Below are positions 3,191 through 62,500 of a stretch of DNA of 64,000 bases, piece after piece (position 1 is the first letter of the stretch; each line of letters begins with the position of its first letter). The translations under genes were made by a program, and so were the position numbers. The DNA is from Protonemura montana (lineage: Eukaryota > Arthropoda > Insecta > Plecoptera > Nemouridae), in the NCBI GenBank assembly GCA_947568835.1, contig OX387611.1, positions 8,684,001 through 8,748,000 of the forward strand, written 5' to 3'. The notes beneath the pieces were generated by a model. It did no database searches, had not been told where the DNA came from, and was given only the letters and a program-made list of their open reading frames with translations.

Positions 3191-3254
3191 GGCAGAGCTG
3201 CTCGCTCTCGGGTCACTTCCGGGTCTATTTTCTTGCGCTGAGAATCTCGACGGT

Positions 3255-10500: not shown

Positions 10501-12667
10501 GCCAGTGCCTCAGGGACAGCACCAACACAGTGTGTCAAAGGGACAAGGCTAAGAGGTGGCCGGTCCTTGGTGCTGTTGGACAGGAGCAGCCAACACAGTG
10601 TGTCAAAGGGACAAGGCTAACCGGTGGCCGGTCCTTGGTGCTGTTGGACAGGAGCAGCCAACACAGTGTCAAAGAGACAAGGCTAAGCAGTGACCGGTCC
10701 TTGGTGCTGTTAGACAGGAGCAGGCAACACAGTGTGTCAAAGGGACAAGGCTAAGCGGTGGCCGGTCCTTGGTGCTGTTGGACAAGAGCAGCCAACACAG
10801 TGTGAAAGAGACAAGGCTAAGCAGTGACCGGTCCTTGGTGCTGTTGGACAGGAGCAGCCAACACAGTGTGTCAAAGGGACAAGGCTAACCGGTGGCCGGT
10901 CCTTGGTGCTGTTAGACAGGAGCAGGCAACACAGTGTGTCAAAGGGACAAGGCTAAGCGGTGGCCGGTCCTTGGTGCTGTTGGACAAGAGCAGCCAACAC
11001 AGTGTGTCAAAGGGACAAGGCTAAGCGGTGGAAGGCCATTGGTGCTGTTGGAAAGTAGCTGGTTGCGTTTTCACCATCAACTCCTTGCCAGACCAGGTTA
11101 GCATCATCGTCAATCTGTCATTCATTGACAGCCAATAAGCCAGTGGCACAAAGACGAAAACCAAAACCTCTGAAAAATATTTTACACTAGCTGTAAACCA
11201 TCAAGCTTTATCTTTCCACCTAAGCTGGATATAAAAATTGGTGGGTGCTTTAATTCTGCGGAGGTCATCAAACGCAGCTTACTAACTGCTGACAACTGAT
11301 TAATAAGCTCCTTTCTTCCGCAGGCTTTGGTTCGGGCTGATTGCCGCATTCCTCGTTTGGATTACGCCCTATATGATTCACGATCACGTCGTCCCGTTTT
11401 CGTACTACGTGCTCGTGCTTGGCAGCTACTCGCTGCAACAGGTAAGAACGTCTCTCTTCAATTCTCGTTGTAATTAGGGAATCTCGTAAATCAGCAGGTA
11501 TTTCGCTATTGATTGATCGCAAAATCTTTGAAGGAACAAAATCTTCACGGTGATGAGTCCCCAAAGAAAATCATTTGTGCTTTTGTCTGTTTATGCTCTA
11601 GGAGCGAAATAGCTGTTTCAGTTTAAATCCAAGCTTCGCAACGTATCTTGAGTTGCTTTATAGATGAGCGTATTTTCTTTAGTTCTTTATTCCATTATAT
11701 TTCTGTGGAAAGGGTTACACTGCATGTTTCTTTCGGTATTTTCTGTTCATTGAATTTTCGTTCAAATTCGTACTGTGAAAATGTTGTTATGGTTCATGAC
11801 GTAGCCAGTATTTTCCTTTCGGAGCTTTCTATTCCTTAGAACGTTCGCTAGGATCATCGAAAATTGTGTTCGCAAACCGCTAGTCATACAAGCTGTTCTT
11901 CTTTGCAGGTTTGCCTCTACGCGATGTACGTCTCGGTGATGGCTTTCTTCGCCCGCGTCTCCGACCCGACGGTCGGGGGAACCTACATGACGTTGCTCAA
12001 CACGCTTGCCAACCTCGGCGGGAACTGGCCGGCTACGATGGCGCTTTGGATGGTGGACTCGTTGACATTTAAACAATGCTCCGGAGCAAAAACGCAGATC
12101 GACGGGAACACGTGTGCTGACACGAATGAGGCTAAGGTGAGCTACGGATTTCCTTGTTGTTAGAGATTTTAAGCTTGTTACTGCAGAAATTATTGATTTG
12201 GACCACAGATAAAGCTAACACAGATATATTAAGTTTCTACCTAACCTATCTTTTATTATGCTTATACAGATATTCCATCCTTGTAGAACAAAGGTACCAC
12301 AGATATAACTTGCTTAGATGGTCTATTTTGGATTAAATTGGTTATCAAAACCTTGGCCTCACAGAGTTGATCCTTATCATCATCCACTCATTCACCGACG
12401 CCATTAGAGGAGTGCTACACGGCCCGTTGTCAAACCAGCGTATCGCTTAACCCCACTTATCAATTAATTTACACCTTTTCTTCATCTGTCCAGGAATGCG
12501 TTGCCGCTGGCGGTAGCTGCGAAACGTGGCTCGACGGCTATTACGTTGAGACCGTCATCTGCTTCGCCATCGGCTGGATTTGGCTCGGCTGGGGCACCAA
12601 GAAAATCCTCGAGCTACAGGCAATGCGAAATTCCGACTGGCAGGTGCCACGGCGAAGACGGAGCTAG
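7549..12667 (+). CDS. SLC33A1: Acetyl-coenzyme A transporter 1 (SLC33A1)
   Basis: Imports acetyl-CoA from the cytosol into the ER/Golgi lumen for acetylation of gangliosides and proteins. Coding exons: 7549-7812, 8307-8605, 8984-9138, 9656-9855, 10283-10467, 11324-11441, 11909-12136, 12494-12667. All have GT/AG sites and matching phases and give 540 residues (human about 549). Family landmarks seen: an acidic N-terminus, DEWNIAILFFLYVLQGIPLG (first membrane helix), DIAVDGWALTML (about residues 175-185), ASTCNSVGQTAGYFLG, GVPKEKLAL, PLQIILPLAISKYT, and GGTYMTLLNTLANLGGNWP (about 430). The protein should have about 12 membrane helices. The ATG at 7549 is the first in frame; upstream codons in the frame include no ATG. 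Intron 3 and intron 5 carry the 68-bp minisatellite in opposite orientations. Intron 2 holds no obvious repeat. The gene is convergent with CAPN7. Confidence 0.96.
9177..9385 (-). repeat. 68-bp minisatellite in SLC33A1 intron 3
   Basis: About 3 copies of the 68-bp family, in reverse orientation relative to the array at 10520. It runs directly into a 3' fragment of the 5S-derived SINE at 9390. Confidence 0.9.
9390..9585 (+). mobile_element. 5S-derived SINE, 3' part
   Basis: Matches the body end and tail of the SINE family: a ccccttggtgctctttgaca block, the tcatcatcatccactcattc stretch, the gtgttagaccag block and an aatcaatcaatc tail. The 5S-like head is missing. Confidence 0.75.
10500..11060 (+). 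repeat. 68-bp minisatellite in SLC33A1 intron 5
   Basis: About 8 copies of a 68-bp unit starting ccaacacagtgtgtcaaagg and containing gtggccggtccttggtgctg (copies at 10522, 10590 and so on). Several units have small deletions. Flanking pieces (cagccaataggccagtgcct at about 10491 and a similar cagccaataagccagtggc at about 11130) recur at 61507, which marks a discrete element. Confidence 0.95.
12170..12310 (+). repeat. Short copy of the 50-bp CAPN7-intron repeat
   Basis: In SLC33A1 intron 7, accacagataaagct, cacagatat and agatattccatcctt blocks match the unit of the array at 18064-18420, in degraded form. Confidence 0.6.
12340..12475 (+). mobile_element. 5S-derived SINE tail fragment
   Basis: Within SLC33A1 intron 7: tcatcatccactcattcacc, then gacgccattaga and a tatcaattaatt tail, matching the 3' end of the SINE family. 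Confidence 0.7.
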
Positions 12668-19500: not shown

Positions 19501-22500
19501 AGCCGGCCCCATTCCTGCCTGCCACGACCTGATGGCGAAAAGTTTGGTTGAGGTTAATTAATTGTTTTTGAACTTTAAACCTGGATCTAGCTACACAGAT
19601 GGTCTGTCCTATGTTGAAAGTGGATCTAGCTACACAGACGGTCTGTCCTATGTTGAAAGTGGATCTAGCTACACAGATGGTCTGTCCTATGTTAAAAGTG
19701 GATCTAGCTACACAGATGGTCTGTCCTATGTTAAAAGTGGATCTAGCTACACAGATGGTCTGTCCTATGTTGAAAGTGGATCTAGCTACACAGATGGTCT
19801 GTCCTATGTTGAAAGTGGATCTAGCTACACAGATGGTCTGTCCTATGTTGAAAGTGGATCTAGCACACAGATGGTCTGTCCTATGTTAAAAGTGGGTCTA
19901 GCTACAAAGATGGTCTGTCCTATGTTAAAAGTGGATCGAGCTACACAGATGGTCTGTCCTATGTTGAAAGTGGATCTAGCACACAGATGGTCCGTCCTAT
20001 GTTGAAAGTGGATCTAGCTACACAGATGGTCTGTCCTATGTCAAAAGTGGATCTAGCTACACAGATGGTCCGTCCTATGTTGAAAGTGGATCTAGCTACA
20101 CAGATGGTCTGTCCTATGTTGAAAGTGGATCTAGCACACAGATGGTCTGTCCTATGTTGAAAGTGGATCTAGCTACACACATGGTCTGTCCTATGTTAAA
20201 AGTGGATCTAGCACACAGATGGTCCGTCCTATGTTAAAAGTGGATCTAGCTACACAGATGGTCTGTCCTATGTTAAAAGTGGATCTAGCACACAGATGGT
20301 CTGTCCTATGTTGAAAGTGGATCTAGCTACACACATGGTCTGTCCTATGTTAAAAGTGGATCTAGCACACAGATGGTCCGTCCTATGTTAAAAGTGGATC
20401 TAGCTACACACATGGTCTGTCCTATGTTAAAAGTGGATCTAGCACACAGATGATCTGTCCTATGTTAAAAGTGGATCTAGCTACACAGATGGTCTGTCCT
20501 ATGTTGAAAGTGGATCTAGCACACAGATGGTCTGTCCTATGTTAAAAGTGGATCTAGCTACACAGATGGTCCGTCCTATGTTGAAAGTGGATCTAGCTAC
20601 ACAGATGGTCCGTCCTATGTTGAAAGTGGATCTAGCTACACAGATGGTCTGTCCTATGTTGAAAGTGGATCTAGCTACACAGATGGTCTGTCCTATGTTG
20701 AAAGTGGATCTAGCTACACAGATGGTCTGTCCTATGTTAAAAGTGGATCGAGCTACACAGATGGTCTGTCCTATGTTGAAAGTGGATCTAGCTACACAGA
20801 TGGTCTGTCCTATGTTGAAAGTGGATCTAGCTACACAGATGGTCTGTCCTATGTTGAAAGTGGATCTAGCTACACAGATGGTCCGTCCTATGTTGAAAGT
20901 GGATCGAGCACACAGATGGTCTGTCCTATGTTGAAAGTGGATCTAGCTACACAGATGGTCTGTCCTATGTTAAAAGTGGATCGAGCTACACAGATGGTCT
21001 GTCCTATGTTGAAAGTGGATCTAGCTACACAGATGGTCTGTCCTATGTTGAAAGTTGATCCAGCACACAGATGGTCTGCCCTATGTTAAAAGTGGATCTA
21101 GCTACACAGATGGTCTGTCCTATGTTGAAAGTGGATCTAGCTACACAGATGGTCTGTCCTATGTTGAAAGTGGATCTAGCGACACAGATGGTCTGTCCTA
21201 TGTTGAAAGTGGATCTAGCTACACAGATGGTCTGTCCTATGTTGAAAGTGGATCTAGCTACACAGATGGTCTGTCCTATGTTAAAAGTGGATCTAGCTAC
21301 AAAGACGGTTCGTCCTATGTTAAAAGTGGATCTAGCTACACAGATGGTCTGTCCTATGTTGAAAGTGGATCTAGCTACACAGATGGTCTGTCCTATGTTG
21401 AAAGTGGATCTAGCACACAGATGGTCTGTCCTATGTTGAAAGTGGATCTAGCTTCACAGATGGTCTGTCCTATGTTAAAAGTGGATCTAGCTTCACAGAT
21501 GGTCTGTCCTATGTTGAAAGTGGATCTAGCTACACAGATGGTCTGTCGTATGTTGAAAGTGGATCTAGCTACACAGATGGTCTGTCCTATGTTAAAAGTG
21601 GATCTAGCTTCACAGTTGGTCCATCCTATGTTGAAAGTGGATCTAGCTACACAGATGGTCTGTCCTATGTTGAAAGTGGATCTAGCTACACAGATGGTCT
21701 GTGCTATGTTAAAAGTGGATCTAGCTACACAGATGGTCTGTCCTATGTTAAAAGTGGATCTAGCTACAGACACTTTGTCCTACAAATCAAAAGCTTAACA
21801 GCTTGATAAACTCACTGGTGAGTGCAGTCCGTGAAGTTAAACATAATCGGATTCCAGCTGAGGTAGAAAACGTCGAAGAACCGACAGATGCTGTCGTAGT
21901 CGATCCAGAATACTCCGTTGTCGAACATCGCCGCGCTTCCGGGGTCGAAGTCAAGGGCGCGACGCATCTCCGTTGTCCAGTTCTTGACGTCGAGCTCCGA
22001 GTAGTTGCCGCGCCACCGTAGGTGGGACCAAGGGTTCTTCAGCTGGAGGAGCTTCACGTTCTGTGCAATAATCAATGGAGATTATTATTAATGCAATTCT
22101 CTTGAAGTTATTTAAGTTAGTTAAAAAATGCAGCCAATTAGCTTAAATTAAATGACAGTAAATTTTATAAAAATTGTATTTTTATTATTATTACAAACAC
22201 TAAAAACCTGTCAAAAATTGATACACAAATCCAGGAATTTGATTCTGGTCTCCACCGTTTGCAGGTGTTGCTTACACCATCTGAGCTATTTGGACACGAG
22301 ATTATTGAGAGAAAATGAGTGTATCAAAATACTTGTTGTAGGTGGAAAAATAAGTAAAGCAACTTTATTCCACTTACTTATCAACCTCTCGACAGCATGA
22401 ATTTGTGGGGGAATTCAGATGCTCTTGTTGTGCAATGCAATGAGTCTGCCGGGTCTCCAAGGAGTAGCATCATAAGGCGGTGAATACGACAATAACTCTG

Positions 22501-25500
22501 ATTAAAGTGAAGCCATGCTGCGTCACATTCATTCAATATCGAGAAATCCAAAAATAAAACTTTTGATACATTTTTCAAGTGTTAATTCTTAATATCTAGC
22601 GAAATTGGCAGGGGATTTTAGAAGGAACCAAATTCTAAATTCTTTAAATGTTTCCTAACTTTCCGAAATTCCAAACATGGAGAGGAATATTTGAAAAGTT
22701 AGCAACGGTTCTTATTGATAAATATCTCATGACTCACGTTCACCATCCGTGCATCAAGAACTGCGTATGCGTGAGTCGGAACGAGCCCAGTGCGTTCCGC
22801 ATCCGCGTCGCTGAGTTCCCCGGTCGCAACTGTCGCAAGAACGTGCCCGGTTTTGATCCGCGTCAGCAGCGTGTCGAACAGCTTGTCGCGGTTCCAGTCG
22901 GAACTGTCGGAACGGATGGCCGCACGTTCCGGGATCCAGCCGGTCAGCGCGTGCAGGTCGATGTTCTGGAAGGAATGACCAGTTCTGTTGGTGTTCTTTG
23001 ATTACGGACAAATTCTTGTGCTTGGAAAAATTTGATGAGGTTAACATTAAAAAAAGGTTTATTGAGGGTTTAGCAGTCTCAAAAACAGGTCATCTATCTG
23101 CAAGAAATTACAATATCAAATTTTTTAACACTGAAAATGAAGATGACTCTCAGGGCACCCGTAGTTATTGCCAGGATACTAGATATGGATTTCTTTTTTT
23201 CAATTTTTCACAAGTCAGTTAAACTTTTCAATTTTTGACTTCTGCAGACATTTCTCGTTTCGACATGTCACATGATGAGAGTGTGCTTTCAAGAATAAAC
23301 GTGTATTGAACAGTGGAACAAACTCAATAAAATGTAAAATGAGCATTACTCACCATGAATGATAAAAGCCTGAGCTGTTACACATTGTGGGTATAGGGTC
23401 TATGCTCTGGAACTGCCTGATTTAAAAACATTTTTACACAAGATATTTTTTTCTTGAAAACCTGTAAAGGGCCAACTCTAAATTTTGGCACAAATATTTA
23501 TTCATATGTTGTCATTTTGTTTAGGTAAATTAAAGGGGAGGGTTTTTTCCAGTGGCGTTTTTTGAAAATGCAGATGTAGAAAATCAAGGTAAATTAGCTG
23601 TCAACCAAGTGGTACATATTATTATATATTCAAGTAGGGAATTTAATTCGCTTTCAGATGAGCTCTCCTGGAACTCTGTAGCTGTCATACAACTCGAGAT
23701 AAAGTATATAATGTGACGGTGATAGCGCGCGGGGGGTGAAAACATCCGAACTTCAACCCCCTGTAACTTTTGAACTCTTCGAGTAAAAAACAAACAAAAA
23801 AATACTTTTACTCAAACTAACATTCTGAACAAGTGTGCCGAATTTCATGAAATTTTGAGTTGGTCAGGGTCAAGGGTGGTCCTATTTGATATGGAAGGAC
23901 CCAAATAGGTAAATTTCAATTCATACTAAAGTTACAAATCTATGGTAAAAAATAATTTTGAAGGGTAAATGCCCCTTTAAGATGCAGCAAAAGCAAGTAT
24001 TTAGAATTCCGAACTCACGCTGTTGGACCCGGGAAAGTCGTACCCGCCCATGACTTTCATGTACGCCTTCTCGAGCAGCGAGATCCAGATCTCCGAACGG
24101 TTCGTAGAGTACGAGCACAGCAGGTCGCCGTGGCGATTTACGGGCAGAAGGTCGTCGATGATCACCTTGCGCGGGATGCCGTTGATATGAAGCTTGACCA
24201 TGTACTTGCCTGGAACGGAAACAAGATTCAAATTGTGTTCAGAGTTCATTTGTAGTTAGCTATTGGGCATTGTGTACATTTTTTATTATTTTATTTTGAA
24301 TTACTAGTTGTACAACTATTTCCTGATTATAAATCAAGTCTAGGTTCCGGTGTGAACATAGATACAACTAGTTGATTCCATCAAGTTGAGGTGTAAGGAA
24401 CTCTTCCAGGCTATAAAATAGTTCTGTAAGAAATATTTCTAGCCTATTTTTTAAGGTAGCGCAATCTTTGGCTTCTTCAACTGCCACCGATAGCAACTGG
24501 GGACTTGCAAGGACCACCAAACATACGGAAATACGTTCCTCGTTGATTCTTGACAGCTGTCACTGAGGTAAGCTCACCGAAAGGGTTCACGATCGGTTCT
24601 TTCTTGCGATTTCGTGGATAGATGATGGACGTGACCAGCCGTTTGCCGAACCGCTTCTCGTAAAGCGCACTGACGGCCAACGACGCCACAAACGAACAGT
24701 CGGAAACGACCTGGAAACGAGAAATTCCGATGTTGCTTTATTGATTGATTATTGGGATTCCACGACGCACTGTTTTGACAACTGGCCCTGCGGCACTGGT
24801 CTAATGGCGTTGGTGAATGAGTGGATGATGATGTTCCTAGCCTAAAAATGTTAAGTTAGTAAAAGCGTGTGGTACAAACACAGCATTACCGTTTGCTTGA
24901 TGCTGAAGCAATCGACATTGTTCCCAGCAACCATAACCGGATGTTCGCTAAGCTCGTCTGGCCTCGCCCATTTGGCAAAGTCCCTGCGCTGCTTTGGGGA
25001 CAGCGCAAGCAAGCCTGCAAACACAAGGAAAATCACACATTGGATCGACTACTCCAGCCTGGCGAGGAACCCAGTTCCTGTCCAACAGCACCAAGGACCG
25101 ACCACCGCTTAGCCTTGTCACTTTGACACACTGTGTTGGCTGCTCCTGTCCAACAGCACCAAGGACCGGCCACCGCTTAGCCTCGTCCCTTTGACACACT
25201 GTGTTGGCTGCTTCTGTCCAACAGCACCAAGGACCGGCCACCGCTTAGCCTTGTCCCTTTGACACACTGTGTTGGCTGCTTCTGTCAAACGTCACCAAGG
25301 ACCGGCCAACGCTTAGTCTTGTCCCTTTGACACACTGTGTTGGCTGCTTCTGTCAAACGTCACCAAGGACCGGCCACCGCTTAGCCTTTTCAATAGACCA
25401 GTAGACTATAGACCACACATACTGTGTTGATGCTGTCCCTGTGGCACTGGTCTATTGTCTGTCAGTGAATGACTAACCTAAGGTTACCGCAAAGTTTACC

Positions 25501-33000: not shown

Positions 33001-35919
33001 AACAACGTCAATGTAACAGTTTCTGGGTGAAAGATGGTCGCCAAATGACTGCTTTGCTGACAAAAATGCCTAAAGATGCCGTTGAGTGGAGTCACCGTCG
33101 AACGAAATTTCAGTTCGTTATTTCTTGCAAGCATTTGAGACTGGTTTACGCTCAAATTATAGTTAATAATTTTAACCTCATCGATTGATTTACATAAGTA
33201 ACGATATTTTGAGTGTTAATTTTTTTCTTTAAGAGGTTTGCAAGCGTCGTCTGTATTCGACTTCCCTTACCACTTGTAGCCGGCTCGTTTGCTCTGGAGA
33301 TACTCCAACATCCGAGTTCTCTCACTACCAATAACCTGCGCACTCAACGGTTTTATGCTGTAAAATATTGTTTAAATTTATAATTCTAGTAATGAGCGAA
33401 GAATGTTTTTTATAACGAACATTTAAGTGGAGATCGGGTTTCAATACCCCGGTTCTGGAGCTGGTGTCTCTAGTGTTTCTGGTGTAAATGTCTTTATTAA
33501 ATTAAATTTCATTATTTTATTGATATAATCTTTACATTTTTCACAAATATAAACATCATACAGGTGAATTTTATACATAGTAATTAATAACCTTAGTGAA
33601 AATAAACAAAGTAGGTAATAATAAAATACTTTGGACATTGCAAATATTTGTAATTTAAATGAAATTTCACGATATTTTTTTTTGCAATTGCTGTCTGCTT
33701 TCAAAAGTCTCTGCGTGAAAAATGACTACCTTACCGACAAAAATGCAGAGTACCGGACAATCACGTTAAGTGGAGCCACTGTCGTCTGAATTTTAATTTC
33801 GATATTTCTCGTAGGTTAACTCACTTTTGAAACTTTTCATGCTCAAAAAATCTTTATTAATGTTTACCTCAACGATTGATACACATGTAACGATATTCAT
33901 AAGCGAGTAACCTACTATAAATATCGAAATTAAATTTCATGTTACAGTGGCTCCACTTAACGTGACGTTCCGGTACTCTGCATTTTTGTCGGTAAGGTAG
34001 TCATTTTTCACGCAGAGACTGTAACATTGACGTTGAAACTCTACCTATAACCTACACTCAACGCTTTCACTCTTGCAGATAACTTTTGCTCTGTTCCAGG
34101 GATAAATTTAAGGAGCGTGGAATTAAAGTCCGAGTTATTGGAAAACTTTCATTAATGCCTGTTGAAGTTCGAAAACTAATGGTCGAAGTAATGAGAGTTA
34201 CCAAAAATAATACAAGGTCTACACTAAATATAGCAGTTTCCTATACTGGTAAGTACTTGCATTCCTTTTTAGGCAGAAAGAAGCCACATTACCAATATAA
34301 ATTGATGTTATAGTTTCTAGACTCATGCCTAGTTTATCTAATCTTGGCACTAGTTTTGACAAACACTTTTTAAACTGAGTTTTGAATGCTAAGTGAAGAA
34401 CAACTAAATTTCCCAACGTTTCGTAACGATTACAATTGTCACTGTTAATTATTTTAGCCTTGATAAAGTTACAGGGACAAGTTACGAAACGTTGGGAAAT
34501 TTCGTTGTTCTTCGCTCAGCATTCAAAACCCAGTTTAAAATATTTTTGGCGAAATTGTTGTTCTTACCTGCAATATATTTTTTTAAATTCTTTAAAAATA
34601 ATACTAACGGTAATTAGTATAGTATAATAATACTAATACTAACGGTAATAACATTCGGAGAACATTATTTCAAATATTGTACTAAACATATAATTATCTC
34701 TGTCAAGAGCAAAGTCAGGCTCACAATTGATAACAGGTTTGCCATTTGATTATTTCATTTTGATGGAAATACTTTTACAGTGTAATTGGGTGTATGGTGG
34801 AAGTATTATACTGATTGTAACCCTTGTTACAAGCCTTGCCAAGCCTTGCCAAGCCTTGCCAAGCCTTGCCAAGCCTTGCCAAGCCTTGCCAAGCCTTGCC
34901 AAGCCTTGCCAAGCCTTGCCAAGCCTTGCCAAGCCTTGCCAGCGGGACAAGCAAGATAAAGTAGCGTCACATCTCACAACAAATAATCGAAATTTCAAAT
35001 TTTTTTTAACAAATTTATTTATTACCATCTTAACATTTTTGTAAATTTACAAAAATGATTGATCATATTGAAAATTAAATATTTTTGTTCTGTAAAGTAG
35101 TGTGAGAATGAAAAAAGTATCGAATGCCAAAAAAAAATAGACAAAATATTTTTGGAAAGGAAGCTAGACTGAAAAAATTTGCAGCCGAACCGGGATACAA
35201 ACCCGGGACCTCCCAATTGCCGGTCGGGTCCTCTACCAACTGAGCTATCCGGACACACATATTCCAGTTTTCGCGGGGGTGGGATAAGGGATCCTCTCAA
35301 TGGGGAAGAGGCCGAAGCCTCGTTGACGAGTTCGTCAATGGCCACAGGACAGAATGGTCTGTCACTATTCCTCGAATCCCGGTTATCTCGAAAGATATTC
35401 GGTTGTTGCAGTGTTTTTGGTTTTACTGGCATTTCCAGTCTACCTTCCTTTCCATCATCCGCTTGCTGGTTTAAGCTCCCTAGTGGAAATGCCAGAAAAA
35501 CAAAAAAAAAATGCAAAATATTTTTTGTCAACACAGGCCGCGAAGAAATCACTCAAGCAGTGTCAGCCATCGTCGCAGGGGTGTCCAGCGGTGCCGTGGC
35601 TCTGGAGGACGTCTCAGAGGAGCTAATTTCCAACTGCTTGTACACGAGTCCAAGTTCGCATCCCGATCTGCTGATCAGGACTTCCGGCGAAGTGAGGCTC
35701 AGCGACTTTTTGCTTTGGCAGACGGCGTACAGTTGTATCTACTTCACGGAAACACTCTGGCCCGAGTTTAAGTTCTGGGATATGTTGCTAGCAATTCTGC
35801 ACTATCAACGATCGTACAAACAATTGGGTGGGCTTCAAGATGATCACAATTCTGCTCATTTTTCAAGCAGAGTGTCAACATTTATTGCAAGCGTGAACAA
35901 AAGAGAGTATTTTGTTTAA
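30072..35919 (+). CDS. DHDDS: Dehydrodolichyl diphosphate synthase catalytic subunit (cis-prenyltransferase)
   Basis: Elongates farnesyl diphosphate with isopentenyl diphosphate to polyprenyl diphosphate, the dolichol precursor, at the ER, together with NUS1/NgBR. Coding exons: 30072-30232, 32699-32860, 34100-34248, 35537-35919; GT-AG, in frame, 284 residues. Starts [14 protein letters not shown] like the animal enzyme. It has [17 protein letters not shown] with catalytic Asp34, then [38 protein letters not shown] (Arg205 and Arg211 at the human positions) and [11 protein letters not shown]. It is about 50 residues shorter than human DHDDS (333), lacking most of the C-terminal helical tail. 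A pyrimidine tract and AG ending at 30060, just before the start codon, suggest a 5'UTR intron. Introns 1 and 3 are full of repeats. NUS1 is not in this window. Confidence 0.97.
30364..30484. repeat. Foldback (palindromic) element in DHDDS intron 1
   Basis: Arms of roughly 50 bp (tatcaacactataaccgtct, aaaaattgatgcccaaac and the reverse complement) around a short centre. The following block (attgcaagcgtttgcaattt at about 30501) recurs in inverse order at about 62205-62235, and a similar atgcccaaacg piece at about 62270, so this is a dispersed family. Confidence 0.8.
30697..32526. mobile_element. 1.8-kb foldback element in DHDDS intron 1
   Basis: The left end (tcattccatgtcaaatcaac) and right end (gttgatttgacatggaatga) are reverse complements. 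The match continues inwards through recognisable blocks (agaaatcgaccaaacttggt, the ggcgggacggcactg/cagtgccgtcccgc pair, gaggcaaacaaa, and tacccta next to cccctaaattgagaa) to about 31600 and 31830. The arms are therefore about 700-900 bp with a loop of roughly 230 bp. Small arm differences show age. No transposase is encoded. Confidence 0.85.
32893..33370. repeat. tRNA-like SINE and dispersed repeat in DHDDS intron 2
   Basis: 32893-33000 matches the tRNA-like segment at 22195 (aacaacctctcaaaaat, then a gaatcccgctctccacc block). 33000-33350 has the ordered blocks of the dispersed repeat also found at 26130 and 53905 (gatggtcgccaaatgact, catttgagactggtttacgc, cgatattttgagtgt, agccggctcgtttgctc). 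Confidence 0.6.
33712..34013. mobile_element. Foldback element in DHDDS intron 2
   Basis: Arms of about 70 bp at 33712-33785 and 33940-34013 (gcgtgaaaaatgactacctt and aaggtagtcatttttcacgc at the ends), nearly perfect apart from one small indel. The inner sequence is AT-rich and non-coding. It ends 86 bases before exon 3. Confidence 0.85.
34310..34565. mobile_element. Hairpin repeat family, copy in DHDDS intron 3
   Basis: Inverted halves: gagttttgaatgctaagtg, then aaatttcccaacgtttcgta, mirrored by acgaaacgttgggaaattt and agcattcaaaacccagttt. Members of the same family lie at 51875, 55000 and 56530. Confidence 0.8.
34828..34941 (+). repeat. 10-bp tandem repeat (aagccttgcc), about 11 copies
   Basis: Almost perfect repetition of a decanucleotide in DHDDS intron 3. 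The high identity suggests recent expansion and likely length polymorphism. Confidence 0.97.
35140..35290 (-). mobile_element. tRNA-derived SINE in DHDDS intron 3
   Basis: On the minus strand, gtccggatagctcagttggt (A box) and a B box in gtcccgggtttgtatcccgg, 30-40 bases apart, form a tRNA-like head. A homologous sequence with the same flanks (ggaaaggaagctagac on one side, cgcggggtgg on the other) lies at 40240-40385. The anticodon stem does not pair properly, so this is a SINE and not a functional tRNA. Confidence 0.75.
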
Positions 35920-45832: not shown

Positions 45833-48800
45833 ATGCATTTGTTAAAGGCGATTTTCTTTTGTTTGCTGCTTGCGCACCGCGCGATTGGCGATATGACAAC
45901 CACTGAAATTGCGTACGATTACTCGTCAGAAGACGATAACAGGTGCGATATCGAACTTTACAAGAATTTATCTAGAACGATCCAGGAGTCGGCATCTAGT
46001 AGGCTAGACAATCTTCGTCCAATTTACGACGCTCTAAGTAATCTCGCAGAGTTACCGGCACTTGAAGCCGCGATCGCCTTGAACTGCATTTACGACATTG
46101 TGACAAATGTAACAACAAGATTGTCATTGGTGAGTGAAGAGGAGGAAAACAGTACGTCTGAGTTCTTGCAAAAGACGGCAGGAATCATAGGCCACGTATA
46201 CACCAACAACACGTTCGAGGATGAAGATTTAAACGTCCTCCACCTCGGCTTAGTCAAGATGCTTACCGAAAACGAATTGTATCTGCAGATGTTCCCTTGG
46301 GCCTCAGTGGGATTAGTAAATTGCTTAGGGAGTTTAGTGTACGAAGACAGAGATATCCGTGTGGGACAAAGCTGTTTAGTCACGAATGAAACGCTTATTG
46401 CGCTTGTCGTATTTCCGGGCGATTCAAGTCCTCTTCGACCTCCAACAATCACAGGGGTCCACGTTGTCAGTTTTCAAATCGTTCACCTTATTCTGGATCG
46501 TAAATCAAGCGACTATAACCAATCTTGTCCCAATAACGACTTTTTCCGTATGTTTGTCATGGTGAAGATTTCAAATAAAATTACTCGATTTGTGCGCTAT
46601 GGATGTGCGCAGTGGAGCCCCGTGGAAAGAGATTGGTCGACCGAATACTGTATTGCCATGAAAGAATTCGAAGAAGACAAGAGAGGACGTTGCAATTGCG
46701 ATACGACGTTAAACGGTGAAACGACGGAGTACATTGTCTACGAGTATGTAGAAGACGTCGAAGAGTTTATTGAATTTAAAAACCTGAAACTTGGAGTGAC
46801 AAACTCTTCTGATGTTTCTGAAATGAACAGTTATCTCAGTAGGCTGAACGAGATCAGGTCATCAAACTCGCCGCAAAGCATAGATTCATTGGTAAGCGAC
46901 GTACTATTTAAGGCTCTTCAGTTTGACATTAGCTTGCTGGTAAACAACTGCAGCACGACAGTTCTTAATGATATCGGTGGCATAATGGAAGCCGTGAAAC
47001 CTAATGGTGCCGTCGGCCGTGGTAACCAGTTGCTCAAAAGCTTTCTGTGTGACGTGAACGAGTACAAGGGTGATCCTCTTATTGCTTTTGCCTTCTACAA
47101 CTCGACGACTTACGCCCTTGATATGGAATACTTCAGATCCAAGGAGCAGGTAGATTTTAACCGGTTGTTTTTCGGAAAAATGGAGTATTCGCTCTTGTTT
47201 TCTGAATCTGTTATCCTACAAAACATCCGTTATGGATATATTCTCTACCCGCTTAACAAATTCTTTAAGTCCATCACTGTTATTGATCGCACTAAAGTGA
47301 TCGCCAGCCGAGTTCTGGAAGTTTTTCTGACTCCCAACGTTAGCTCTTCGGAAAAACAGGACCAGTTGGTTCACATGTTTTTTAATCCCGACCCCCAGGC
47401 TGTATTCGAATACGGCTGCGCATACTGGAGCGAGGTCATTGGCCAATGGACTACCGACGGTTGCTACCAAAACCCAGACCTCTACCGAGAAGTCTGCACA
47501 TGCAACATGAGCGCCCATTTCCAAGAGTCTCAGACTCGCGGCGTTTTTGTCAGTATCAAGTTTGTCCAGCCGACTGACGTTATAAAAAACTCTCAACAAA
47601 GTCTAAAGGTTGACTTTGATTATCTGATTGTGTCGTACACTTTATTCAATCTGCGGAACATTGACAGGTTTTATCAGGGAGAAGAGAGCGGACTTATTGC
47701 GTTAAAGTTTTTAAACAATTATTACCGTAATTGTTACACTTTGGGGGCACGGTTAGACTCGCCGACGCAGATTGAGCTTGTGCAAAAGGCAAGTCGGGCG
47801 CTTTCCGGAGGCGAGAACTTTGAAAAACTGAAAGAAAAAATGCATAGCAATATACAGGATGATCGCTGTCTGTGGTTTCGCGCTTTTGTAGGATCGATAG
47901 ACACAGGACACTCTCCCGTTACCAATGACACTATCACATGCACCGGCGACTTAAAGTTGTTAAGAAACTTGAATGACAATGTGTCACTCACACTAAATAT
48001 AGCCCAATCTTTAAAACAGAACAACATTAAATACACTGTTCTATTGTATCCCGTCAATTTCAACATTCGGTCATTACCGTCAATAGGGCAAAAAATCATT
48101 AGAAGCTATGCGTTCGACGTTATTTTGGAACCGAGTAACATTGGTGACAGCACAGTCGAACAATATGTTGAAGTCGCGATCAACCAGACTGATTTTGACG
48201 TTTTAATGGGATGTTCTTACTGGAGAGAAGACCTTGAAGCCTGGACTCAAGACGGTTGCCGGATAGTCCAAGTTGGCAGCACCAAAAAATGCTATTTTAG
48301 CATCTCGTCCAACATGAACTATTCGCGATCATACGGCCAGTATATTGCGTACCATTCTATAAGAGACATTTTTGACAAAACACTTTACGACGAACTTATC
48401 CTGAAACCGATTGACATAGGCTCTGATCAAGACTTTAACACCAGCAGGGACCTGATCCACAGTTTGAAAAAAATTCCTTTCGAAGACAGCTCGGTCTTTA
48501 GCATGTTACATATCTACTTGCGTTTACTAGGTTTGGGTAAGTCAATCTTGATACTGCGGCAGGACGAGGTCAGATACATCTTACAAGATATGACATTTTT
48601 AATAAGCCACTATCATCTCAGTGATAGAATCCCTCTTACATTACAACTCAGCATTCAGGGCACACAGGACCTAAACTTGAAAAGCAACCTCGTCGCCACA
48701 GATCTCTTTTCAAATGCTGTGCTCTATGCAACGGATGCCAGTAACTCATCCAAAACAGCTGACTTGTCTGTCGTCGTTCTGGGATTTTACATGAACTTGG

Positions 48801-50479
48801 ATAAAGGAAAATCCATGCATGGATTTTACCTTGTTGGTGAATTAACCGAGCAGCTCTTCTTGATGAGTAACTCTTTCTCTGACGCTGCTCTTTTGCCGAG
48901 CACTAGTCTGTCTTGTTTTGTAACACCTACCGTATTAATTCGCCGACGCTTGGTGATCGTTATTTACCCCATTAACACGTCCCCCTATCCTCTCACTATG
49001 ACAACACAAGCAATCTTTAACACCCGCCAGCTAGACGTTTTTATCGCTAACGACGAAAGATGGGAGGACAACTCGCATGTTTATTATTCGATCACCTCTC
49101 ACTTCAGACCGTCAATCGAGGCCAATGACTATGTCAACATTTCGTGCGCTTCCTGGGATGACACTGAAACGCGATGGAGATTCGATATATGTACCCTTGC
49201 AAGCACAAACTCGACGTCAAACATCACTTTTATTGCCTGCGTTTGCAATCTGACCGATCGCCTTGTCACTCGAATCATGTTGTACGAGTACACAGACTTG
49301 GAAAACTTTTCTTTCATCGCGACGTTCGAAGGTACAACCATCGTGTTCCTGATTGTCGCTCTCCTCTCAGCGCTTGGTCTCTGCGTGTTGGCTCTGACAG
49401 CGTTCTTATTCCCAAAATGGCGCGAAAAGCTCGGCAACAAAATAATGATAAATCTGACAGCGGCAACCTCGTTCTACCTCACCATGTCGATTTACCGTGA
49501 GACGCACCATATCTACGCAGCGACAAACTACAGCAACTTAGGCATCATCGTGTTCACTGCTTTCGTGCACTACTCGAGACTGGCCCACTACTGCTGGGGG
49601 TTGGTCATGTCCGTACTACAGTACAAGCGTTTTTCCGGCGTGGTCGGCGCCTCAACTATTTCGCATCTCCTTCTCAAAGTTAGTCTATTTGCTTGGGGAG
49701 CTCCGTTACTTCCACTAGCAATTCTACTTTCTTGGGACACAAAGGTTCACTTTTGCAGTCCGGACAAGCTCACGCACTACGTTCTCTATTTGGTGCCTGT
49801 GGTCGTGATTACCATGCTTAACATTGGGCTACTTGTGGCAATTGTGATTACTACCACCAATTGCTTTGGCTTGTGGAACGATGACGAACTTCAAAGGCAT
49901 GGTGTCGACAACAAGGAGGTGATGCTGCGTCGAATTAAACAGACCGTGCTGATGTTCGTCATCTTTGGTATCCCGGCCGTGTTCGAGATGCTGAACGACT
50001 TCGGGGATCATATCATTGCTCTGGAGTACATCAACAAGATCCTGGACCCAATCCAAGGGTTCGTCATGTTCCTGTTCTTCGTTGTGATTGACGACAAGAC
50101 TAAGGGCTACTGGTACACTTGGTATTACGGCGAGCAGGCAGTGGTTCCTCCGATAAAGTTCCAGATTCAAAGAGCTAAAGCAATACGTCGTGTGGTAAGA
50201 CCAGCAGTGGAGGAACTTCCGTTAGAAGAAGCAAAGCTGGAGGAATTTGATTTGGATGAAATGAAAATCAAAGAATTCGAGGTTAAAGAAATAAAAACTG
50301 AAGAAATCGAGTTGGAAGAAATTAAAACCAAAGAAATCGAGGTTCAAGAAACTAAAACTGAAGACATCGAGTTGGAAGAATTCAAAACGAAGGTAAATAA
50401 CACAGAAGATAAAAATGCGGATGTAATAATTCACTCAAAATCAAGTTCTGTCGAAATAATCGATAAGAAACCAATTTAG
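45833..50479 (+). CDS. Adhesion-GPCR-like receptor with four tandem GPS-like modules
   Basis: One open frame of 1548 residues, no intron. A signal peptide (MHLLKAIFFCLLLAHRAIG) opens a long extracellular part. Cys-x-x-Trp ... Trp ... Cys ... Cys-x-Cys patterns typical of GPS motifs start at about residues 258 (CAQWSPVERDWSTEYC), 529 (CAYWSEVIGQWTTDGC), 794 (CSYWREDLEAWTQDGC) and 1105 (CASWDDTETRWRFDIC), spaced 265-311 residues. Repeats of a preceding strand pattern (YILYPLNK, LLYPVNF, VIYPINT) support repeated GAIN-like modules. About residues 1165-1420 form seven membrane helices with adhesion/secretin (class B) character (loop LWNDDELQRH, helix FVIFGIPAVFEML). The cytoplasmic tail has two acidic/basic 20-residue repeats (IELEEIKT, IELEEFKT). 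The last module reads CVCNLT where cleavable receptors have CNHLT. Ligand and signalling are unknown. Confidence 0.85.
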   Translation: MHLLKAIFFCLLLAHRAIGDMTTTEIAYDYSSEDDNRCDIELYKNLSRTIQESASSRLDNLRPIYDALSNLAELPALEAAIALNCIYDIVTNVTTRLSLVSEEEENSTSEFLQKTAGIIGHVYTNNTFEDEDLNVLHLGLVKMLTENELYLQMFPWASVGLVNCLGSLVYEDRDIRVGQSCLVTNETLIALVVFPGDSSPLRPPTITGVHVVSFQIVHLILDRKSSDYNQSCPNNDFFRMFVMVKISNKITRFVRYGCAQWSPVERDWSTEYCIAMKEFEEDKRGRCNCDTTLNGETTEYIVYEYVEDVEEFIEFKNLKLGVTNSSDVSEMNSYLSRLNEIRSSNSPQSIDSLVSDVLFKALQFDISLLVNNCSTTVLNDIGGIMEAVKPNGAVGRGNQLLKSFLCDVNEYKGDPLIAFAFYNSTTYALDMEYFRSKEQVDFNRLFFGKMEYSLLFSESVILQNIRYGYILYPLNKFFKSITVIDRTKVIASRVLEVFLTPNVSSSEKQDQLVHMFFNPDPQAVFEYGCAYWSEVIGQWTTDGCYQNPDLYREVCTCNMSAHFQESQTRGVFVSIKFVQPTDVIKNSQQSLKVDFDYLIVSYTLFNLRNIDRFYQGEESGLIALKFLNNYYRNCYTLGARLDSPTQIELVQKASRALSGGENFEKLKEKMHSNIQDDRCLWFRAFVGSIDTGHSPVTNDTITCTGDLKLLRNLNDNVSLTLNIAQSLKQNNIKYTVLLYPVNFNIRSLPSIGQKIIRSYAFDVILEPSNIGDSTVEQYVEVAINQTDFDVLMGCSYWREDLEAWTQDGCRIVQVGSTKKCYFSISSNMNYSRSYGQYIAYHSIRDIFDKTLYDELILKPIDIGSDQDFNTSRDLIHSLKKIPFEDSSVFSMLHIYLRLLGLGKSILILRQDEVRYILQDMTFLISHYHLSDRIPLTLQLSIQGTQDLNLKSNLVATDLFSNAVLYATDASNSSKTADLSVVVLGFYMNLDKGKSMHGFYLVGELTEQLFLMSNSFSDAALLPSTSLSCFVTPTVLIRRRLVIVIYPINTSPYPLTMTTQAIFNTRQLDVFIANDERWEDNSHVYYSITSHFRPSIEANDYVNISCASWDDTETRWRFDICTLASTNSTSNITFIACVCNLTDRLVTRIMLYEYTDLENFSFIATFEGTTIVFLIVALLSALGLCVLALTAFLFPKWREKLGNKIMINLTAATSFYLTMSIYRETHHIYAATNYSNLGIIVFTAFVHYSRLAHYCWGLVMSVLQYKRFSGVVGASTISHLLLKVSLFAWGAPLLPLAILLSWDTKVHFCSPDKLTHYVLYLVPVVVITMLNIGLLVAIVITTTNCFGLWNDDELQRHGVDNKEVMLRRIKQTVLMFVIFGIPAVFEMLNDFGDHIIALEYINKILDPIQGFVMFLFFVVIDDKTKGYWYTWYYGEQAVVPPIKFQIQRAKAIRRVVRPAVEELPLEEAKLEEFDLDEMKIKEFEVKEIKTEEIELEEIKTKEIEVQETKTEDIELEEFKTKVNNTEDKNADVIIHSKSSSVEIIDKKPI

Positions 50480-56500: not shown

Positions 56501-59500
56501 TCGATACAGCTTACGATAACCTACAACAATTTATGATGGTTTTTAGACTCATGTCTACTTGATTTATCCTTAGCACTAGTTTTAACAAAAACTATTTGAA
56601 ATGGGGTTTGAATGCTAAGTAAAGGACCACTAAATTTCCCGACTAGTTACTTTTTCAAGGGTTAAAGCAGTCCTGAACTGCTCTAAGTAACTAGTACATG
56701 TTACGAAACGTCGGGAAATTTAGTTGTCCTTTACTTAGCATTCAAAACCCATTGCAAATAGTTTCTTTTTTTAACCTATAACAATGTTTATATTTAAAAT
56801 TTTATGAAAATTGTTTTACTATGTATATATCTTCAACTGCCATGTTCAGAGTTTATTTCAAATGTCAACGCTTTCTTTTCAGCGTCGTGTTGGGTGTGAT
56901 AGTCGGCGTCGCCGTCGGTTGCACAGTTTTAGACTTCTACTCCGGCAGCGGCGACGACAAGGAAGACAAACGTAAGCAAGTCGTAAACCAAAACGTCCTG
57001 ACCCACCGGTTGAGAACCACTGCTCTAGACCAATTCATACCCGAACTTTGACGTAACTTCGATCTGCTGCATAATTGCTAACGCCAAAGTGAACAGAGAC
57101 ATTAAAATCTTGGCAACCCACTAGGGAAGTCTAGAAATACAAATGACTCGTGCCCAGTGCATCGGGCAGTTCATACCAATTTCATTGAAATAGGTGGGAT
57201 GGGTGGGTGGGTAAGGGTTGTCATGGCAATCTAAAGCAAGTAACCCGTGCCCAGCATCGAACAGTTCATCACAATGTAATAGTAATGGGTGGGTGAAACA
57301 AGAGTTGTCATGGCAATCTAAAACAAGTAACCCGTGTCCGGCATTGGGCAGTTCATGGCAATATATTAGTAATGGGTGGGTGAAACAAGGGTTGACATGA
57401 CAATCCAAAATCGGTCGCTGCTGATAAACCCTGGTCCAGCTTGTAAATCCTACCTTTCACCCACCACATACAGAGAATAACGCAATTGGCTACCTGCTCT
57501 GCTTCTCAATGCGCAAGAACTGGGCTGAGATGGGCCTCCGCGTGGATTCTGATCTTAATTTCTTACACGGAATTCGCTTCTTGTGCATGTGCATCATCAT
57601 CTTCGGCCATCGCCTTGGCAATATCATCTCCAGGCCAGTGCAGAACTTCGAGTACGTCGAGCAGGTACACATTATTTCGTGTCATCGTTTTCATTGATTC
57701 TAGTTCTGGTCGCTACAGATTTTGACAGGTTTCTCTGCCCGCTTAAAGAGCTTGTCATGTTGTTAACCATTTTTATTTTTTATTTATTTATTATTTAAGT
57801 CTAGGAATTCCTACTCTGTTGTAATACAGAGGAATGTACAGACTATACTATATTATAAGATATAAAAATATTAAAAAAAAAAAAAATGAATAATAACTTC
57901 TTATGGAAATAGAAAAGGAATTTAGTTAATAAGTTAATTATTAATAAGTTAAAAGTTAATTAGTTAATAGTGAACACATACCAATAGTAAATTCGTTGTA
58001 GTTTCTTGTAGACCTATGTCAATTCAGTATTTTAAAGTTGGAAGCTTATCCACAACCTTTTGTTGAAAAAATATTTGTTTCACTACAATTCTCTGATGGC
58101 AGACGAGTGCTAGCGTTTGCCATCGTACAAGTTATTATATATTTAAATTGGAACCCAGAATATTGAGGCAGAGTGCGTTGACCATTAGGAAAGAGCTGGC
58201 CCCGAAAACATCACGTATTTTGAATGGCAAGTCTTTTCGTCTGGAAAGTGGTGCTGGTGTCATGTCAGGTCAAGGGTCAGGTCATGTCAAAAAATGAACT
58301 CCTATCGATAGTGAGATCCCAGCATGGTACATAACCCGCTTTAAAATCTTGCATCCAATATATTTTTGAAAGTTTGTGCAGAAGACAATTAATAATGTAA
58401 ATAGAACATGCTCTAATTGCAAAGATGCTACAGTAGTCTGCTGTGGCCGTTCTTGAGTTGAATTTTGGCAACAGCATTGACGCGAGTTGCCGTTCAGACG
58501 GAACTAGTTTTCTAGTGTGGTAGACTGCTGCAGCAGAGTGCCGTGAATTCAGCTCCTGTGTAAACCATCTTACAGCAATACAATCAGCCCTACGCCCTCA
58601 TCATCTACAAAGGAGATCTACTGGTCGACGTCTTCTTTCTCTTTAGCGGCATCCTCTGCACTTACATCCTGTGTCTAACGCTTGACAAGAGGAAGGTCAA
58701 CCCGCTAACAGTCGTCGTTCTACGATTTATCAGGTGAGGCAGCTTACATCCCTTAAGACACCGAAGAAACATACAGTTGTGTGAATATTTTTCAGTTATA
58801 GTCAGTTAAGGTTGTTCGGTAAATATTTGCTTAAATCAAAGCCCTCCAAAAAGTAGTGGTAGGTAAGCGTCGTTATTTTTTTTATTACAAATGGTTTGGG
58901 AGCTGTGCCTCCCAAGATTTACTTGTAGCCCCCTTACCCTCTTAAAAAGATAAAGAAAAAATAAGGCGAATTTAGAACGCAACTCAAATTTTGTTCGCGA
59001 ATACCAAGTATGTAACAAACTTATCTCCTAGTATGTAATCGCTGTTGTCGGTTTCTTCGCAGACTGACCCCCGTGTACATGGTAGTAGTCTTTTTCTACG
59101 CCACCTTGATGTACCACGTGAACGACGGGCCGTTGTGGCAACAACTTATTGGTCCTGAACGAGACGCATGTGTCGAAAACTGGTGGACAAACCTGCTTTA
59201 CATCAGCAACTACGTCAAAGACGACGAGATGGTAAGAGGTTAATTGCATTTAAATATGAGTGTAGAGCAAGTAAAGTAAGAAAAATGCTTCGGGAGTGAC
59301 CCGAGAGCGAGCAACTCTGCCGATCGAACACGTGAAAGTTGCACTGGGTCAGAGTCACATGCCCAGTCGAACACGTGAAAGTTGCACTGGGACAGAGTCA
59401 CATGCCCAGTCGAACACGTGAAAGTTGCACTGGGACAGAGTCACATGCCCAGTCGAACACGTGAAAGTTGGACTGGGACAGAGTCACATGCCCAGTCGAA

Positions 59501-62500
59501 CACGTGGAAGTTGCACTGGGGCAGAGTCACATGCCCAGTCAAACACGTGAAAGTTGCACTGGGACAGAGTCACATGCTCAGTCGAACACGTGAAAGTTGC
59601 ACTGGGGCAGAGACACATGCCCAGTCGAACAAAATTTGCACTGGGACAGAGTCACATGCCCAGAAGAACACGTGAAAGTTGCACTGGGACAGAGTCACAT
59701 GCCCAGTCGAACACGTGAAAGTTGCACTGGGACAGAGTCACATGCAGTCGAACACGTGAAAGTTGCACTGGGGCAGAGTCACATACCCAGTCGAACACGT
59801 GAAAGTTGCACTGGGACAGAGTCACATGCCCAGTCGAACACGTGAAAGTTGCACTGGGGCAGAGTCACATGCCCAGTCGAACACGCAGAACGCTCCTAGG
59901 CCACACCAGGCGCGCATCGGGGCAGCCAATCGAAGACGACATTATTGTACTCCGTTGGTCTCCTTGACTCCAGATTGCTCTCTGTCGTATTGATCAGACA
60001 TTCTCGAAATGTTCCTTTAAATCATAAAATATTAGGTAACATTATTTTATTTTGTATGCGTAACGTTCAAATTGCCTCCTCCTTTGCAGTGTATGATCCA
60101 TAGTTGGTACCTGCCCTGTGACACGCACTTCTTCGCCATCACCCTCTTCGTGGTCCTGGTGCTTCACAAACACCCTAAGTCCGGCATCTGCATCTTAACG
60201 GTGTTGATCTTCGCCTCTGCATTGGTGCCATTCCTCATCACCTTCATCGGCAGGAAGTCACCGTTACTTTACTTCTACTCCGAGTAAGGCCACAAGGACA
60301 GCGCCACCACAGTGTGACAAAGAGACAGACTAAGCGGTAGCCGGCCCTTGGTGCTGTTGGACAGGAGCAGCCAACACCGTGTGTCAAAGGGCCAAGGCTC
60401 AGCGGTGGCCGGTCCTTGGTGCTGTTGGACAGGAGCAGCCAACACAGTGTGTCAAAGGGCTAAGGCTCAGCGGTGGCCAGCCCTAGGTGCTATAAGACAG
60501 GATCATGCTGCGTACCGGCACCGGTTTCACCCTCTTTTCACTGCTACGCCACCTTTTTTTTTTTTTTTTTTTTTTTGCCGGGCCCCCATTCTGCCACGGC
60601 AGCATGGCGATCGCTGTACACTACATCGCCTCTACCTTACACTATCAAAGATTGTGCAGCCCGTTACAAATAACAGGAATCTCTGATGTGCGGACATGCA
60701 AGGATTCATGCAAGGATCAACAATGTCGGGAGAGGTAGAATGTATTGTTCAGCTTTTCGGCTGGTATAATTCTGTCAAGCTTGGTAGTTAGTAAGTTGAC
60801 ATTACAAGAAGGAATCGAGAAGAGAGATAGAGGCAGTAAAAAGACTGACACGGAAGAAAGATTGTGACGATCATAAACTCTGCCGTAACATGCAGATAGA
60901 AAAGAGCAGGTTGCATTCCCACTTGAAGTGAGTTTGCTACACTAGGATTAATTTGAGTTTGCCACTTTCTGGGGTGCTTGTACCAACCTAGAAAACATGA
61001 CACCATGATGCTACTGTTAGCTATCCGATTTAAAAGTAACAAAATAATGTTTTTCTTTGGTTGAAACATTTCATAATTTCAGGAAAATAAAATATTTAAT
61101 GAAAAACAATAAATGTTTATCAACCAAAGTTAAAATTAATATATTTTGGATTACTTTTAACTTTTATCAGGTGTAGGCAGGAAACCAAGCTCGCAAACTG
61201 CTTTTTGGCAGCCATTGCTAGAATCCGCTAGTGTACGGTAGGTATTTAGCAGAAGTCATTAGGACTTTTAGTTTTGCATTTAAGTTCTTATTTTTCAATA
61301 TAATTAATTTCACGTAAATAAACTGATGAATCCTCAAAGAATTTAAGTGCATGATGCATTGTTTGGTCATAATTTTCTGGTTAATTTCAAACTCCCCGGT
61401 GAAGACTGGCTTTATTTTGTATTCTAAAGTTGGCAATGTGTAATCAGAGTCCACCAGCTTGTGGCAAGGTAAGGCTAACACAACTGTAAATCTGCGCTAC
61501 GCCAACCTTACTTCAACAGCCAATAAACCAGTTGCACTCAGACAGAGCTAACACTGTGTGTCAAAGGGCCGGCCCTTGGTGTTGGATGGAGCGGGCTGCG
61601 TGCCAGCACCGAATTTGGATACATTTTATTACTTGATTGCAGATTCTTCGTCGCCCCTAAAACACACCAAGTCTTCCAGATGTTGTACACCAAGTCGCAC
61701 GCTCGTGCCAGTCCCTATTTTGTCGGCGTGGCAACAGGATACATCTTCTACCGCACGCGTGCGCTCAAGAAGAATTACGAGGTAAAACCAATTGAACCAA
61801 TTTCTCGCAGAACTCGTGTTGAAAGATGGAATATATCTATGGAGGCACAGCAAAGAAACGAAAATATTGCTTACAATCCAAAAACGTGTGTTAATATACA
61901 TAAGAGGAGCGAGCGCAAACCCAACAGCGGTAATTTATACCAATGATTCGTGGAATCCACCATAAGGAAGTTGTAAATATTTCATTTTCCCTTAATTGCT
62001 AATAAATAACACTTGATAATGAGCTATTTGGACACTGGCTTTTTGAGACGATTTTAGTGTATTTGATGAGAATGACAGTTCTCCAAGGAGTAGAACCATG
62101 AGGCTGTGAATACTCACAGTCATTCTGATTCTAGTGACGCTATACCACGTCACAACCTGTCAAACTCAAATAACTCCAATTTGACGTTGGATTCGTTGCT
62201 GTATTATTTAAATTGCAAACGCTTGCAATGCGCGGTGTATTATATCATTAACAACACTTTAACTGTCTCAAAAATTGGTGCCCAAACGCGGACTCGGGGT
62301 TCGAGTATTTGATCAATTTAGATTCAGTGCCTCACAAAAATGGACTTGAAAGATCCACACGACCTCCAAGGATGCTAAACGCCTCCTAACGACACCAATG
62401 TTCCAGTGGAAGGCTCGTGCGGGGTTGGCGATCTCTGCGCTCATCGGCATCGCCTCTGTGCTACCGGCGTTTATGTTCTACGACCCCGATTGGAAGTATG

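Follow-up and report, generated by a model that had tools for sequence, protein, structure and literature searches.

Adhesion GPCRs usually carry one membrane-proximal GAIN domain, an arrangement that we do not take as defining, and the available portions of a review describe the GAIN domain as the sole extracellular element consistent across nearly all of these receptors, sited just outside the membrane (PMC13197933). How is an open reading frame to be understood that carries four GPS-type patterns ahead of one 7TM domain? Such a frame lies in the window, the stretch of 64,000 nucleotides of Protonemura montana DNA analysed here. Profile comparisons, trees and genome searches make it nearly certain that its product consists of four GAIN-like modules followed by one 7TM domain (Table 1).

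Translation of the ORF revealed a coding region without intron or internal stop. The C-x-x-W patterns, which start at residues 258, 529, 794 and 1105, are spaced 271, 265 and 311 residues apart, and the fourth GPS (residues 1105-1138) adjoins the side of the 7TM domain on which the first membrane helix lies. The sequence-only reading had reported one ORF with four GPS-type patterns at a spacing of 265-311 residues, and its coordinates, spacing and motif were all reproduced. The Pfam GPS model (PF01825; cut-off 22.5 bits) reached 30.9 bits on the whole protein (E 3.9e-7) and marked four stretches at a permissive E limit of 10. Tested segment by segment, modules 2, 3 and 4 scored 22.3, 14.7 and 13.0 bits, the model found no GPS in the module 1 segment, and no single module reached the cut-off alone. 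Apart from GPS, Pfam recognised no ectodomain family in the protein. When residues 1-1165 were shuffled 20,000 times, 19 of the products contained one GPS-like pattern and none contained more than one; the real protein has four. A similar strand string had also been claimed to precede each GPS. This applies to modules 2 to 4, with YPLNK (residue ~472), YPVNF (~739) and YPINT (~1045), and breaks down for module 1, where the equivalent is FPGDS (~194).

Table 1. Features of the four-GAIN receptor gene in the window and of longer relatives in the same genome. Module bit scores come from family profiles built with the window sequence included and are hence not independent.
Feature	Position	Strand	Basis or remark
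Four-GAIN adhesion GPCR gene	45833..50479	+	unbroken ORF, ATG to TAG, 1548 aa
Putative signal peptide, residues 1-19, MHLLKAIFFCLLLAHRAIG	45833..45889	+	translation inspected by eye
GAIN-like module 1, residues ~21-317	45893..46783	+	family M1 profile, 329 bits
GPS of module 1, C258-C289	46604..46699	+	CNCDTTL, without H-X-S/T
GAIN-like module 2, residues ~321-589	46793..47599	+	family profile, 371 bits
GPS of module 2, C529-C557	47417..47503	+	CTCNMSA, without H-X-S/T; N-glycosylation sequon NMS
GAIN-like module 3, residues ~593-849	47609..48379	+	family profile, 268 bits
GPS of module 3, C794-F822	48212..48298	+	CYFSISS, C-x-C without second Cys
Membrane-proximal GAIN-like module 4, residues ~852-1165	48386..49327	+	family profile, 356 bits
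GPS of module 4, C1105-C1138	49145..49246	+	CVCNLTD, without H-X-S/T; sequon NLT
7TM domain, adhesion-GPCR type, residues ~1160-1440	49310..50152	+	family profile A1 versus ADGRG2
Cytoplasmic tail with acidic ~10-aa repeats	50153..50476	+	30-bp unit at 50252-50392, ~4.7 copies, coding the acidic units
Predicted five-GAIN receptor L044	L044:184-5601	+	1806 aa, single frame
Predicted five-GAIN receptor L047	L047:164-5554	-	1797 aa, single frame
Predicted six-GAIN receptor L048	L048:220-6288	+	2023 aa, single frame

Relation of the modules and the membrane domain to known receptors

Comparison of the window protein with itself by BLASTP gave no repeat at E<=10, and identity between the modules inside the gene is 16-21% (five of six pairs reported). 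The repeat became visible only with family profiles. The rows for these came from ORFs of the family in this genome, among them the window gene, and comprised 19 rows for module 1 (M1) and 29 rows each for modules 2 to 4 (M2-M4). In hhalign comparisons of whole-module profiles 167-253 columns were aligned, with E-values of 1.7e-21 (M1-M2), 4e-25 (M1-M3), 6e-17 (M1-M4), 6e-42 (M2-M3), 5e-17 (M2-M4) and 2e-19 (M3-M4); as these values apply to one comparison each, it is the contrast with the controls that carries the argument, and the best control value, module profiles versus a 7TM profile, was 0.05. Profiles of the upstream parts, from which the GPS had been removed, still aligned with E-values of 1e-23 (M2-M3), 5e-14 (M1-M3), 5e-10 (M1-M2), 3e-10 (M3-M4) and 9e-7 (M2-M4). 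M1-M4 was the weakest of these pairs (E 1e-4, 56% probability, 72 columns), and the best of twelve reversed-profile controls reached 0.053. Similarity is thus not limited to the Cys/Trp positions, the outcome named by the sequence-only reading as contrary to its proposal that the ectodomain is a duplicated GAIN-like unit. That proposal is now backed by the GPS-free profiles, by a module tree ordered by position and by relatives with five and six modules.

The unit in question could be linked to GAIN domains of ordinary receptors. Searched against a database of seven sequences, all four module profiles matched the GAIN domain of L005, a single-GAIN paralog that keeps the cleavage triad HLT; in the same database the M2 profile covered its residues 71-314 (E 4e-23). 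The M4 profile matched the GAIN domains of L002, L003 and L005. Residues 109-591 of L005 in turn aligned with ADGRG6 (E 4e-41) and its residues 142-312 with the ADGRG6 ectodomain chain (E 3.8e-9), and profile A4, which represents module 3, matched the latrophilin-1 GAIN domain (E 9.5e-4). Direct matches of the module profiles to solved GAIN domains were weak and covered only the last ~40-80 residues, with best E-values of 7e-4 (M3), 0.0036 (M1), 0.014 (M2) and 0.12 (M4), the last ranking behind an unrelated row at 0.072. Structure prediction, which the sequence-only reading had put forward as a check, was carried out for modules 2 and 4 and gave low-confidence models in both cases. For module 2 (mean pLDDT 44.6) Foldseek ranked GAIN domains of BAI2/BAI3 first, at E 0.035 or worse, and for module 4 (mean pLDDT 46.1) there was no GAIN domain among the 50 matches listed in the fold search; as a check on the proposal, structure was weak. 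A GAIN fold around the GPS is indicated by the sequence profiles, and the module 2 model is suggestive of it. Taken at sequence level, these comparisons show that homology, both among the four modules and with ordinary GAIN domains, extends along most of each module. Each module probably consists of a helical part and a beta part ending in the GPS.

The membrane domain was assigned with a family profile (A1) of GPS4 plus 7TM built from 22 sequences, in which 55 columns are invariant. It matched ADGRG2 and ADGRG6 chains that cover both GPS and 7TM domain with an E-value of 1.9e-16, followed by ADGRD1, ADGRL3, ADGRE5 and ADGRF1, among others. The window sequence alone reached an adhesion-GPCR 7TM domain with E 0.037 in phmmer. 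Pfam 7tm_2 gave no match in the window protein itself; it was found at E<=1 in four of the 22 A1 members (best 7e-15), and the five-module receptor L044 passes its cut-off. As judged from these matches, the 7TM domain belongs to the adhesion-GPCR type (class B2). Among the hallmarks of that class, the seven-helix domain and a GPS beside the first helix are present in the window protein; a single GAIN domain and the H-X-S/T triad are not.

The window family, which has four to six GAIN modules and none with an in-register H-X-S/T, therewith shares the GPS and the class B2 7TM domain with ADGRG2 and ADGRG6, but these carry one GAIN domain. The single-GAIN receptors L002, L003 and L005 likewise share 7TM type and GAIN with the family, whereas they have one GAIN domain with a canonical HLT. 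Human ADGRB2 and ADGRB3, the low-confidence top rows of the Foldseek search, resemble it in having a cleavage-incompetent GAIN domain, as is predicted here; however, they have only one, in which B2 keeps HLS and B3 has RLS. According to the available sections of one paper, GAIN domains of the ADGRB2/ADGRB3 type were uncleaved in crystals (PMC13062082).

Polycystin-1 proteins also combine a GPS with a membrane part, but are described, in the sections available, as 11-TM proteins (PMC9672506) and not as class B 7TM receptors. Identity of the window protein with a polycystin-1 of 11 membrane helices was rejected, its membrane part matching class B2 7TM chains. Elsewhere in the genome, L043:892-6000 is by inspection polycystin-1-like; its single frame measures 1703 aa or more and includes a GPS that ends in CQCTHFSLFSG. 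The genome may contain many such long frames free of introns.

Gene family and module number

The genome (258 Mb in 34 contigs, with the window on contig C14) was searched with the window protein. At least 40 matches were obtained, the window protein itself included and some being pieces of one gene; this number is a lower bound, as 30 of 228 candidates were scored. The closest paralogs among the matches listed are 89-90% identical to the window gene. Scanning for a conserved 7TM peptide with a degenerate DNA pattern gave 37 places, 32 of them within the loci examined, and scanning with the backward control gave none. What the sequence-only reading had called a single receptor is therefore one of dozens in the same genome. 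We aligned 29 long ORFs, window gene included, and left out four copies with in-frame stops (L019, L022, L025 and L030) and one without a long ORF (L040). A census with profiles built from these same sequences found the order M1-M2-M3-M4 in 27 of the 29, M1 being present over most of its length in 19 and clipped at the locus edge in eight; L029 and L042 are without M1. The 7TM domain is present in 28 ORFs, that of L039 being clipped at the locus edge, and is missing from the frame of L041. L049 is a further four-module member outside the 29. By these searches the window gene is placed in a lineage-expanded family with unbroken coding frames in one arthropod genome.

The window gene shares its flanks with L010 and L011, and the flanks of L009, L010 and L011 align along with the genes. 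These copies therefore arose by DNA duplication and not as retrocopies. Pooled over six pairs, which were picked for closeness and in two of which M1 is partial, dN/dS was 0.48 for M1, 0.37 for M2, 0.35 for M3, 0.34 for M4 and 0.21 for the 7TM domain. The 7TM domain is thus the most constrained part, and M1 evolves fastest in the pooled count. Single recent pairs were noisy, with values of up to 0.91 (M1), 0.99 (M3) and 0.93 (M4), and the rank of M1 therefore holds for the pool and not for every pair.

Relatives with other module numbers came from a genome search with 7tm_2. With 150 of its 167 candidates scored, this search gave at least 127 places, some of which are fragments of the same gene. 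Of four listed frames longer than 1790 aa, three were examined for module number; L044 and L047 have five modules and L048 has six, with GPS at 299, 565, 837, 1112, 1387 and 1685. For these counts we relied on the motif together with the module profiles; at E<=0.01 Pfam GPS marked a single stretch in L044 and two stretches in L048. The first three modules of L044 are 73-82% identical to one another and recur with a period of 822-825 nt, including a 300-nt stretch of 93-98% identity. Module number has thus changed by duplication of the unit, and the near-identical modules of L044 represent a recent instance.

In the module tree (13 rows for M1, 17 each for M2-M4) every position formed one clade with 99-100% support, and the array is therefore older than the spread of the family. 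M2 grouped with M3 (96/88) and M4 with three single GAIN domains (93/83). In the line with five and six modules the inner modules formed a group of their own (93/78) and the last modules joined M4 (94/88); the groupings of M4, including that with the single GAINs, stay under the 95% bootstrap mark. A 7TM tree of 27 rows united the four-, five- and six-module receptors in one group (100/100) versus one-module and probable two-module receptors. From the placement of M4 and the last modules it follows that the membrane-proximal GAIN domain is most likely ancestral and that, to judge from these sequence trees, arrays were extended upstream of M4 at least twice.

Other receptors of the genome were noted on the way. 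L045, L046 and L050, of ~900 aa or more, may hold two GAIN modules, the first GPS being degenerate, and L045 and L050 end in WAQVLAPVRDR-like repeated units. A second expansion, mostly on contig C14, consists of single-frame receptors of ~600-700 aa with one GPS and 7tm_2 (e.g. L008:616-2559).

Cleavage motif and proposed working

Self-cleavage requires H-X-S/T with His as base, and the triad is absent in ten of 32 human adhesion GPCRs, as stated in the available sections of PMC13062082. None of the four modules of the window gene has the triad. Over the 29 ORFs it was found in register in none of 114 GPS (0/27, 0/29, 0/29 and 0/29 for GPS1 to GPS4), nor in any of the 20 GPS of L044, L047, L048 and L049. 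All four single-GAIN receptors L002-L005 have it in register; L008, the single-GPS receptor of the second expansion, is also without it. In six of 29 GPS2 rows an H-X-S/T (HFT or HES) is shifted downstream by three to five residues relative to its usual place, and out-of-register cleavage might conceivably occur there. An N-glycosylation sequon is situated at or just after C-x-C in 1/27, 23/29, 24/29 and 21/29 rows for GPS1 to GPS4 and in 19 of the 20 GPS of L044, L047, L048 and L049. We infer that receptors of the window family are uncleaved and remain one chain. The strand after GPS4 contains an invariant Glu and Asn-Phe in 22 sequences and is of a YEY type, e.g. IMLYEYT. It differs from what we take to be the usual Stachel, and tethered agonism may therefore be lost.

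The reading that we prefer, and consider rather probable from the sequences, is that of an expanded family of adhesion receptors with tandem, uncleaved GAIN domains, of which M4 would signal and the outer ones would form a stalk. How such a receptor would work is a more tentative matter, which we rate at somewhat less than an even chance. It would stay one chain without self-cleavage. Module 4, kin to the single GAIN domains of ordinary receptors, would keep the signalling role and act reversibly on the 7TM domain through its uncleaved last strand; that uncleaved receptors may use the Stachel reversibly is discussed in the available sections of PMC13062082. The three outer GAIN domains would serve as a ligand-binding and/or force-bearing stalk, and the outermost module, being the most variable, would fit a part that meets diverse partners. 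Still more tentatively, GAIN, so far described as a single and often self-cleaving receptor cap, may be regarded as a serially repeated unit of variable copy number in a large uncleaved family; the array would act as mechanical or ligand-binding units in series, whose number would tune the reach or the force threshold of the receptor.

The array itself could be doubted on other grounds. If Cys/Trp spacing had converged and modules 1-3 were unrelated domains whose disulfide pattern resembles that of a GPS, the empty BLASTP self-comparison and the individual GPS scores under the Pfam cut-off would be accounted for. However, profiles without the GPS still align, which largely refutes this explanation; in addition, modules 2 and 3 align with the GAIN domain of L005 along almost all of its length and a relative with six modules exists, so that we regard convergence as hardly credible. 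An artefact of assembly or a pseudogene, that is, a tandem duplication made in silico or a decaying gene, is equally improbable: stops do occur in some relatives and L040 lacks a long ORF, but the four-module order recurs in 27 of 29 ORFs on seven contigs, the low identity of 16-21% between modules of the window gene (five pairs reported out of six) argues against it, and dN/dS is below 1.

As to function, the family might instead be a contact-chemosensory or recognition repertoire comparable to other sensory receptor families that are large and single-exon; its members, differing in their outer modules, would each bind another surface or secreted ligand, and the GAIN repeats would be ligand-binding domains and not force sensors. 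We consider this rather unlikely. It would suit the large lineage expansion (lower bounds of 40 matches from 30 of 228 candidates scored and of 127 places for 7tm_2, some being pieces), the unbroken coding frames, the origin of the closest copies by DNA duplication, as seen in the flanks of L009, L010 and L011, an outermost module that changes fastest in the pool, and in-frame stops in four copies, as in birth-and-death families. The pooled dN/dS of M1 is 0.48, however, and not above 1, and to our knowledge no adhesion GPCR family serves as an arthropod chemoreceptor. A role in structural adhesion only, the GAIN stalk bridging cells or matrix, tethered agonism being lost and the 7TM domain being constitutive or a scaffold, appears distinctly unlikely. 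It agrees with the lack of an in-register H-X-S/T in every GPS examined and with the YEY-type strand, presumably unlike a usual Stachel, but the 7TM domain is the most constrained part (0.21), and the 55 invariant columns of GPS4 and 7TM in 22 sequences are expected of signalling.

On the preferred reading of uncleaved tandem-GAIN receptors, a GAIN domain serially repeated without an in-register triad would separate the fold from proteolysis. The question whether GAIN transmits force or ligand binding without cleavage, and whether added units alter the response, thereby becomes testable: one genome offers four-, five- and six-copy variants together with HLT-bearing single-GAIN paralogs as a natural comparison series. 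In addition, so large an expansion hints that an arthropod has a sensory or recognition repertoire not recognised so far. Our literature search, with arthropod proteome databases outside its scope, found no receptor with tandem or multiple GAIN domains, including in the available sections of PMC12716839, PMC11697300 and PMC13062082. The terms 'tandem' and 'second GAIN' are absent from the accessible text of the 2026 adhesion-GPCR review (PMC13197933), as are 'multiple GAIN' and 'two GAIN' from that of a GAIN numbering paper (14,435 models, trimmed upstream of the GPS record). Arthropod databases may well contain unnamed entries for proteins that have several GPS domains.

Other features of the window

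A single-frame gustatory/chemosensory receptor lies on the minus strand at 4290-5600 (Pfam 7tm_7, E 1.6e-30), and a cis-prenyltransferase exon at 35173-35919 (Pfam Prenyltransf, E 4.4e-32). Large minisatellite arrays occupy positions 2032-3192, 9176-9373, 10518-11059, 19582-21768, 25078-25388, 59324-59885 and 60303-60502. Compared by eye, the 43-bp unit at 2032 is found again at 59324, almost unchanged but reverse-complemented, and four arrays share a 68-bp unit that occurs in both orientations.
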